64,000 bases of DNA from the NCBI RefSeq assembly GCF_900103975.1, contig NZ_FNIR01000009.1, positions 62,001-126,000 of the forward strand. Direction: 5' to 3'. Shown here in pieces: positions 48,993 through 51,255 of this stretch; the stretch's first letter is position 1; every line of letters starts with the position of its first letter. The notes under the pieces are model-generated. The model was not told the origin of the DNA. It did not search any database and saw only the letters and a program-made list of their open reading frames with translations. Both the position numbers and the translations under genes were made by a program. Source of the DNA: Klenkia soli (GTDB lineage: Bacteria; Actinomycetota; Actinomycetes; Mycobacteriales; Geodermatophilaceae).

Positions 48993-50213
48993 TCACGGCC
49001 GGGGCAGGCCCTTCCGCCAGGCGCTGAAGCTGCTCACCGGGCCCGCGTGCGGACGGCGCAACCACGGCCACGGGTGCACCTCCACCGGCGCGACCACCCG
49101 CGCCCGCTCGCGGAAGCCGGGCACCGGCGCGTGCGTCACCGCCACCGGCCGGCCGGCCAGCACCTCGGTCGGCGATCCCAGGTGCAGCTCCACCTCCCGG
49201 TCCTCCGCGAGCTCGGCGAGGGTCTCGGCGAGGAAGACCAGCCGCTTCGAGGCCAGCTGCAGCCGGGCCAGCAGCGGCTCGTCGAACACGAACACCACCG
49301 GCAGGTCGGGGTGGGCGGCCAGCGCGGGGTCCGTCGTCCCCAGCGACTCGGCGGTCAGCCAGACCGCCTCAGGCGTGCCGCCGGACTCCACCGACGAGGG
49401 CCCCGCGGTCACCCCGGGCGAGGGGTCGGCGGCCATCAGCGGCTCGCGCTCCAGCCAGCGGGTCGGCTGGTCCTCGGGCCAGGCCTCGATCGGGCAGTCG
49501 GCGGCCAGCGGGCAGCGTTCGCACAGACCCGGCGCCCGCTTGCGCACCTGCCAGCGCGAGAAGCCGTGGGCCTTGCCGTTGCCGGCGCCGACCGTCCACT
49601 GCCAGCCGACCCGGTTGGCCGCCCGCGACCCGTCGATCAACCGGGCGAACAGCTCGTCGTCGCCGGCCGCCCAGTCGTGCCCGGCCCGCACGGTCCACTG
49701 CGAGGACACCCACATCCGGGTCTGGTTGACCAGCCACCCGTCGTCGTCCAGCTCGCCCAGCACGGTGTCCAGGCAGAGCATGTCGCGGGGCCACGGCTCC
49801 TGCCAGCGCGCCCGGCCGCGGGCCGGCTCGGCCCGCAGCGCCGAGCGGGTGCGGGTGCCCAGCCGGGCGTAGAGGTGCCGCGAGTACTCCTGCCAGAGCA
49901 GCTCGTCGCGGTACTTCGAGCGGTCGCGGGTCGGGGCGTCGGCCACGGCGTCCCACACCTCGGGGAGCTGGAGGAGCCCGTGCCGGATCCACGGGCTCAT
50001 GGCCGAGGCACCGCGGCGGCTCTCGGGCAGCACCTCGTTGCGGCGCGAGGCGTACCCGGTGATGTCCAGGGTGGCCAGCGCGGCGTCGGCCGCGGCCTGC
50101 CCGCCGCGGAACCGGCCCGAGGGGCGGACCTCGTCGTCCCGGTGCAGGTGGCCCAGGTGCTCGCCCACCCAGGCGGGGACGGCGTCGACGGCGGGGACGG
50201 GCAGCTGGCTCAC
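48993..50213 (-). CDS. Photolyase/cryptochrome-like protein with swapped domain order and Fe-S-type cysteines
   Basis: A 406-residue protein. Residues 30-240 are the photolyase FAD-binding domain: LDITGYASRRNEVLPESRRG, MSPWIRHGLLQLPEVWDAV and RAANRVGWQWTVGAGNGKA. Four cysteines (C147, C231, C234, C240) follow the C-x83-C-x2-C-x5-C pattern, close to the [4Fe-4S]-binding set of FeS-BCP photolyases. Residues 284-406 (VWLTAESLGTTDPALAA, VVFVFDEPLLARLQLASKR, ending FSAWRKGLPRP) look like the alpha/beta antenna domain that normally comes first. Here it is C-terminal, so the domains appear permuted. GTG 50213 has GGTGGAG upstream. Probably light-driven DNA repair or blue-light sensing. Confidence 0.82.
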   Translation of the reverse strand: MSQLPVPAVDAVPAWVGEHLGHLHRDDEVRPSGRFRGGQAAADAALATLDITGYASRRNEVLPESRRGASAMSPWIRHGLLQLPEVWDAVADAPTRDRSKYRDELLWQEYSRHLYARLGTRTRSALRAEPARGRARWQEPWPRDMLCLDTVLGELDDDGWLVNQTRMWVSSQWTVRAGHDWAAGDDELFARLIDGSRAANRVGWQWTVGAGNGKAHGFSRWQVRKRAPGLCERCPLAADCPIEAWPEDQPTRWLEREPLMAADPSPGVTAGPSSVESGGTPEAVWLTAESLGTTDPALAAHPDLPVVFVFDEPLLARLQLASKRLVFLAETLAELAEDREVELHLGSPTEVLAGRPVAVTHAPVPGFRERARVVAPVEVHPWPWLRRPHAGPVSSFSAWRKGLPRP

Positions 50214-50274: not shown

Positions 50275-51255
50275 ATGCGCGCGATCACCATCGACTCCCC
50301 CGGCGGCCCCGAGAAGCTCGTCTGGGGCGAGCTGCCCGACCCCACCGCCGGGCCCGGGGAGGTCGTGCTGGACGTCGTGGCCAGCGCGGTCAACCGGGCC
50401 GACCTGCTGCAGCGCGAGGGCAACTACCCGGTGCCCGCCGGCGCCAGCGAAGTGCTGGGCCTGGAGTGCAGCGGCATCGTCGCCGAGGTCGGCCCGGGGG
50501 TCGAGGGGTGGCAGGTCGGCGACGAGGTGTGCGCGCTGCTGGCCGGCGGGGGCTATGCCGAGAAGGTCGCCGTCCCGGCGGCGCAGCTGCTCCCCCGCCC
50601 CGCCGGCGTCGAGCTGGCCTCGGCCGCCGCGCTGCCCGAGGTGGCGTGCACGGTGTGGTCCAACGTCTTCCTGCGGGCCGGGTTGACCCGCGGCGAGCTG
50701 CTGCTCGTGCACGGCGGCGGCAGCGGCATCGGCACCATGGCGATCCAGCTGGCCAAGCGCGCCGGGGCGAGGGTGGCCACCACGGCCGGCAGTGCCGAGA
50801 AGCTGGCGTTCTGCCGCGAGCTGGGCGCCGACATCACGATCAACTACCGGGACGAGGACTTCGTCGAGGTGGTCAAGGCCGCCGGCGGGGCCGACGTCGT
50901 CCTGGACAACATGGGCGCGGCCTACCTGGCCCGCAACGTCGACGCGCTGGCCCCCGACGGCCGGATCACCATCATCGGCATGCAGGGCGGGGTGAAGGGC
51001 GAGCTGAACATCGGGGCGCTGCTGGCCAAGCGCGGCAGCGTGCACGCGATGGGCCTGCGCGGCCGGCCGGTCGAGGGGCCCAACGGCAAGGCGGCGATCG
51101 TGGCCGCCGTCCGCGCGCACGTGTGGCCCGACGTCGAGGCCGGCCGGGTGCGCCCGGTGGTGCACACCCGTCTGCCGATGGCACGGGCCGGCGACGGCCA
51201 CCGGATCCTCGAGGAGAGCTCCCACACCGGCAAGGTGCTGCTCGTCAACGACTGA
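50275..51255 (+). CDS. NAD(P)H:quinone oxidoreductase (zeta-crystallin-like MDR)
   Basis: A 326-residue medium-chain reductase without zinc motifs. The N-terminal domain has AVNRADLLQREGNYPVP and GLECSGIVAEVGPGV; the cofactor loop is LLVHGGGSGIGTMAIQLAK; GADITINYRDEDFVEVVK follows. PIG3/TP53I3-like quinone oxidoreductases have the same pattern and reduce quinones by one electron with NADPH. ATG 50275 begins MRAITIDSPGGPEKL. Divergent from the photolyase-like gene (61 bases apart), an arrangement consistent with a shared stress promoter. Ends five bases from the convergent aminotransferase-like gene. Confidence 0.92.
   Translation: MRAITIDSPGGPEKLVWGELPDPTAGPGEVVLDVVASAVNRADLLQREGNYPVPAGASEVLGLECSGIVAEVGPGVEGWQVGDEVCALLAGGGYAEKVAVPAAQLLPRPAGVELASAAALPEVACTVWSNVFLRAGLTRGELLLVHGGGSGIGTMAIQLAKRAGARVATTAGSAEKLAFCRELGADITINYRDEDFVEVVKAAGGADVVLDNMGAAYLARNVDALAPDGRITIIGMQGGVKGELNIGALLAKRGSVHAMGLRGRPVEGPNGKAAIVAAVRAHVWPDVEAGRVRPVVHTRLPMARAGDGHRILEESSHTGKVLLVND

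Follow-up and report, generated by a model that had tools for sequence, protein, structure and literature searches.

The analyzed stretch of DNA (the window; 64,000 nucleotides of a Klenkia soli contig, NZ_FNIR01000009.1) contains a complete photolyase-like gene (48993..50213, minus strand, as are all features of this gene given below; 406 codons plus a stop, with a GTG start). We predict with good confidence that its product is a light-driven repair enzyme of the SPL (short photolyase-like) group, in which a flavin adenine dinucleotide (FAD) domain carrying a [4Fe-4S] cluster comes first, a shortened antenna-type domain comes last, and the likely reaction is the repair of cyclobutane pyrimidine dimers (CPDs). 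The domain order, the homology of the FAD domain and the conservation of the cysteines and of the lesion-pocket residues are established by sequence and by a structural model. The anatomy proposed in an initial annotation of this DNA is real and was correctly read, but it belongs to an already described bacterial group, and the present analysis is of value mainly for its evidence that a light-harvesting domain, though moved, has been retained in this group. What the [4Fe-4S] cluster does in photolyases is presented as still open in PMC12082625 (cited, like all papers below, from excerpts), and a compact enzyme that seems to join the cluster to a CPD pocket and a relocated antenna would allow the role of the cluster to be asked without (6-4) chemistry.

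Domain order and the C-terminal domain

A scan of species genomes yielded 345 relatives; the best 80 (nearly all actinobacterial by title) were retained as loci, and conservation was assessed in an alignment of 77 rows (the window protein and 76 relatives). The N-terminal FAD-binding catalytic domain (residues 1–257, 49443..50213) matches FAD_binding_7 (PF03441) over residues 104–218 (49560..49904) with a score of 30.5 bits vs. a cut-off of 27, and in the predicted structure (pLDDT, the model's own confidence measure, of 95.4) it agrees with the photolyase FAD fold, the fold comparison having covered residues 1–258, i.e., the FAD domain. The only other result of the Pfam scan of this protein was a sub-threshold match of the endonuclease III Fe-S motif to residues 230–240: neither the N-terminal PF00875 antenna domain typical of class I CPD photolyases nor the N-terminal PF04244 domain typical of FeS-BCP enzymes was present, and no Pfam family matched the last 130 residues. 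A wrong start or a lost N-terminal antenna, which had been named initially as a possible source of the unusual order, is ruled out; antenna matches were absent both upstream and in the remaining parts of the 80 loci. A linker separating both domains (residues 258–281, 49371..49442) is followed by the C-terminal alpha/beta domain (residues 282–406, 48996..49370), modeled as five strands alternating with helices.

Profile comparison identifies this last domain as a shortened relative of the antenna domain that ordinary photolyases carry at the N-terminus. A profile of residues 278–406 matched a profile of 16 ordinary N-terminal antenna domains over residues 282–353 (probability 95.7%, E 9.4e-9); crossed controls gave 0.2 and 0.5, and the match far exceeds those obtained with reversed profiles (0.2 and 0.6), with 100 column shuffles (at most 1.5%) and with the 136 other open frames of the window compared with the antenna profile (at most 5.8). 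The initial claims that the FAD domain comes first and an antenna-like domain last, and that residues 284–406 represent a trimmed antenna domain, are supported. Plasmid-encoded Deinococcus proteins of the same domain order provide a bridge between the two domain types, because their C-terminal profile matches both the antenna domain (E 1.1e-12) and the window-type C-terminal domain (E 5.1e-19); two of the three scanned Deinococcus C-terminal regions also matched PF00875, with neither match (E 7e-4 and 2e-4) reaching the curated cut-off. Application of the antenna profile to 6,969 open frames (the 80 loci plus a control) returned, besides the control, only 13 homologues (E 3e-5 to 0.03), with the matches strongest in their C-terminal part.

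Some observations weigh against this relationship. The profile check suggested at the outset was positive for FAD_binding_7 (77/77 members at E up to 0.1) and negative for the Pfam antenna model, which matched none of the 77 members at the same threshold. Moreover, the antenna alignment does not extend beyond residues 282–353, and residues 354–406 are tied to the antenna only via the Deinococcus proteins, which extend the link to about residue 377, and via the predicted strands. A single antenna sequence used in place of the profile reached a probability of only 48.9. The Pfam and single-sequence results, along with the fact that alpha/beta folds are common, would be consistent with an unrelated small alpha/beta domain merely resembling an antenna; we regard such a resemblance as very improbable given the distance of the profile match from all shuffles, reversals and other open frames, the two-sided match of the Deinococcus proteins, and the PF00875 matches in two of them.

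Fe-S cysteines and the lesion pocket

The window protein has exactly four cysteines, namely Cys147 (49773..49775), the first proposed Fe-S ligand, and Cys231, Cys234 and Cys240 of a CxxCx5C motif (49494..49523). All four are kept in 77/77 rows with gaps of invariably 83, 2 and 5 residues, which rules out chance cysteines; the patterns used to search for relatives held no cysteine, so this conservation was not built in. Some SPL members have four Fe-S cysteines. An hhalign comparison with 11 FeS-BCP proteins (so named here by the presence of PF04244) placed all four cysteines on theirs (probability 91.9), with the CxxCx5C motif superimposed on the CxxCx12C motif; a MAFFT alignment paired the first cysteine only and left the CxxCx5C columns unaligned. 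The Cys147 column holds a cysteine in all 11 FeS-BCPs and in all four Deinococcus proteins, as well as in one of five NewPHL-type rows (so named by architecture and host, not by database label). The corresponding gaps are 87, 2 and 12 in the FeS-BCP of the host itself (L155), 84, 2 and 6 in three fused Deinococcus proteins, 84, 2 and 3 in the FAD half from Deinococcus sp. QL22, and 86–89, 2 and 12–15 in FeS-BCPs as reported in PMC3204975. Because the last gap is 5 vs. 12–15 residues, the final cysteine loop is shorter in the window family than in FeS-BCPs. Overall, the Fe-S-type character of these cysteines proposed in the initial annotation is supported, and from it we infer the binding of a [4Fe-4S] cluster.

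The same domain contains a CPD-type (class I/III-like) pocket. Its residues Glu104 (49902..49904), Trp107, Asn163 and Met167 (the ends of NQTRM, residues 163–167, 49713..49727) and Trp206 (in GWQW, residues 203–206, 49596..49607) align with E. coli Glu274, position 277, Asn341, Met345 and Trp384, which we take to touch the lesion, and both motifs as well as all five residues are kept in 77/77 rows. The same five residues occur in 15 of 17 ordinary photolyases (Gln and Leu are found in the other two, L029 and L032); among the Deinococcus rows, the pocket Glu is replaced by Gln in one. In all 11 FeS-BCPs these positions are Gln, Trp, His, Leu and Trp, so that the pocket His characteristic of that family is replaced by Asn163 in the window protein. 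CPD repair is therefore favored over (6-4) activity, and, as far as pocket residues can tell, CPDs are most likely the substrate.

Assignment of the window protein as a (6-4) photolyase could draw on the alignment of its Fe-S site with that of the FeS-BCP enzymes and, as a point that counts against CPD repair, on the (6-4) activity argued from the cysteines of Phr4/5 and Phr6 (PMC9426592). We consider it unlikely in view of the contrast between Gln, His and Leu in 11/11 FeS-BCPs and Glu, Asn and Met in 77/77 members of the window family, and of the separate FeS-BCP with PF04244 in the same genome.

In the proposed mechanism of CPD repair, blue or ultraviolet A light would excite the reduced FAD, and a dimer flipped into the five-residue pocket would then accept an electron from the flavin. 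Trp204 (in GWQW) and Trp181, whose aligned counterparts in the electron chain of the E. coli enzyme are Trp382 and Trp359 (tryptophans as named in PMC3204975), would by correspondence represent two of the three flavin-reducing tryptophans. The cluster, predicted to be bound through Cys147, Cys231, Cys234 and Cys240, probably has a structural role, holding in place the end of the FAD domain at the point where additional helices occur in ordinary enzymes. For the C-terminal domain, we infer a probable role as a cap over the FAD site; its chromophore may have been lost. Single-stranded DNA may be preferred, a suggestion made only by analogy with the preference reported for NewPHL.

Two findings count against a plain repair function. 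At the place of the third tryptophan of the chain, no tryptophan is found: E. coli Trp306 is paired with a leucine. In addition, an ordinary photolyase (L001) and an FeS-BCP (L155) are already encoded in the host genome, so that the window protein may have a specialized or signaling role. Both findings would suit a cryptochrome-like light or redox sensor with its repair activity lost, as would the recurrence of neighbor genes in at most six of the 80 loci, so that no pathway is shown. Cryptochromes tend to lose some of the lesion-pocket residues. With all five of the five checked pocket residues kept in every row, a sensor appears improbable, and a light-driven CPD repair enzyme is the reading that we retain.

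Distribution, genome setting and origin

A full-length relative was found in 15 of 150 genomes of the host's order (the window's genome counted, i.e., in 14 others), and two more genomes gave a partial or two-piece match; the remaining matches end by residue 235 at the latest, as expected of ordinary photolyases. At the phylum level, 26 of 396 genomes matched at E of 1e-60 or below. One locus is titled Myxococcota; among 140 genomes of its phylum, two, including the one that holds the locus, had a full-length match and a third had the FAD region only. A viral scan for phage-borne copies returned 21 pattern matches and no relatives. The nearest named relatives among the best 80 of 345 (88–89% identity) comprise five Klenkia sequences plus one titled Modestobacter, in keeping with a Klenkia origin of the window; rows from Rhodococcus and Rhodococcoides in the 77-row alignment are at about 60% identity; a tested SPL member reportedly comes from Rhodococcus fascians. 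In one genome of the host's order (L018), the relative is represented by a pair of overlapping matches to query residues 4–202 and 124–401, both on a single contig, and is probably an interrupted or split copy.

The inverted gene is thus one of three photolyase-family genes in the host, next to the ordinary one and the FeS-BCP. A conserved operon is ruled out: within flanks of at most 5 kb, and of less in many of the 80 loci, four of seven neighbor genes recur in six loci (five Klenkia by title and the one titled Modestobacter), two in two loci and one in none, and an all-against-all comparison of open frames of at least 150 residues revealed no other family in eight or more of the 80 loci. 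The divergent neighbor, a zinc-binding-dehydrogenase-type gene (quinone oxidoreductase-like; 50275-51255, plus strand), lies 61 bases from the photolyase start and is found nearby in only six of the 80 loci.

These proteins also bear on the question of which photolyase arose first, the proposal that SPLs are the ancestral photolyases being repeated in PMC9649867 and PMC9498864. A tree of 53 FAD domains built with IQ-TREE from 200 columns, excluding the Fe-S loop, did not resolve how the groups are ordered. Rooted on FeS-BCPs, it set the actinobacterial SPLs apart from ordinary photolyases together with the Deinococcus, NewPHL-type and Persicobacter rows, with a support of 82/42; given this weak order, a single inversion is not favored. 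Approximately unbiased tests did not reject a clade of all inverted-order rows (p 0.303), of the four-cysteine SPL rows (p 0.357), or of the latter with FeS-BCPs (p 0.446). The evidence for a relocated antenna in Fe-S SPLs weakens the idea of an antenna-less ancestor. We tentatively suggest, as a scenario that falls somewhat short of being probable, that Fe-S SPLs are full two-domain photolyases whose antenna shrank after it had been transferred to a position behind the FAD domain or had been joined there from a separate gene; that rooting on a short photolyase as the ancestor would need revision; and that the cluster may pair with CPD as well as with (6-4) repair.

Other inverted-order proteins were observed on plasmids. 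In Deinococcus sp. QL22 (L113:1845-3136), the FAD and antenna-like domains are encoded by adjacent genes with a four-base overlap, a layout that resembles cyanobacterial Phr4/Phr5; the annotations of genes beside them read ParB family and AAA ATPase. The fused form with the four cysteines is found on three further Deinococcus plasmids. Two Persicobacter plasmids (L150:2357-3571 and L151:2234-3577) encode FAD-first proteins without the CxxC motif, followed by a second frame that by eye is like another photolyase; the C-terminal part of the FAD-first proteins matched neither the antenna nor the window-type domain (probability 0.2 each).

Comparison with described photolyases

The premise of the initial annotation that the antenna domain precedes the FAD domain in known photolyases is out of date, since NewPHL, Phr4/5, Phr6 and SPL are in print (PMC9426592, PMC13274461, PMC9649867). 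Nor does the window protein represent a distinct new architecture, as Phr4 and Phr6 have already been reported with four cysteines.

The FeS-BCP enzymes (PhrB, prokaryotic (6-4) photolyases) share with it the positions of the four FAD-domain cysteines by profile alignment, but differ in their normal domain order with an N-terminal PF04244 domain, in the pocket His and in the longer last cysteine gap. NewPHL, or Phr7 (Emmerich et al. 2020, cited in PMC9426592), has the same inverted order, and its FAD domain is related to that of the window protein (hhalign probability 99.7 to the five NewPHL-type rows); those rows, however, have no CxxC, in line with the absence of the Fe-S cysteines from Phr7 as stated in PMC9426592, whereas the window protein has four invariant cysteines. 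The C-terminal domain of the NewPHL-type rows (the Z-domain in NewPHL) matched that of the window protein with a probability of 0.1 and, weakly, that of Deinococcus with 21.7; the lack of a profile match does not imply that the folds differ. A further parallel is given by Phr4/Phr5 and Phr6 of picocyanobacteria, with the FAD domain first, the photolyase domain last, four Fe-S cysteines and, in some cases, the two domains on two genes; they differ, in a comparison made by description only, in being cyanobacterial and in their suggested (6-4) activity (PMC9426592).

The SPL class of Xu et al. 2021 is described in PMC9649867 as CPD-photolyase-like, without an N-terminal alpha/beta domain and with an Fe-S cluster named for the class; it is also treated in PMC9178010 (where an S. 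elongatus SPL gene is named), PMC9498864 and PMC13274461, the last of which treats NewPHL and SPL as one inverted-topology group. In the excerpts consulted, a set that did not include Xu et al. 2021 or Emmerich et al. 2020 themselves, no statement clearly naming the C-terminal domain of actinobacterial SPLs as an antenna relative was found. Like SPLs, the window protein has no N-terminal antenna (residues 1–257 being the FAD domain) and combines a CPD-like pocket with four Fe-S cysteines; the difference is that the alpha/beta domain described as missing from SPLs has a relative at the C-terminus of the window protein. Thus, by features as described in these papers (no published SPL sequence having been recognized among the loci compared), it is best classed as an actinobacterial SPL, and the profile evidence that actinobacterial Fe-S SPLs keep a relocated antenna domain may be new.
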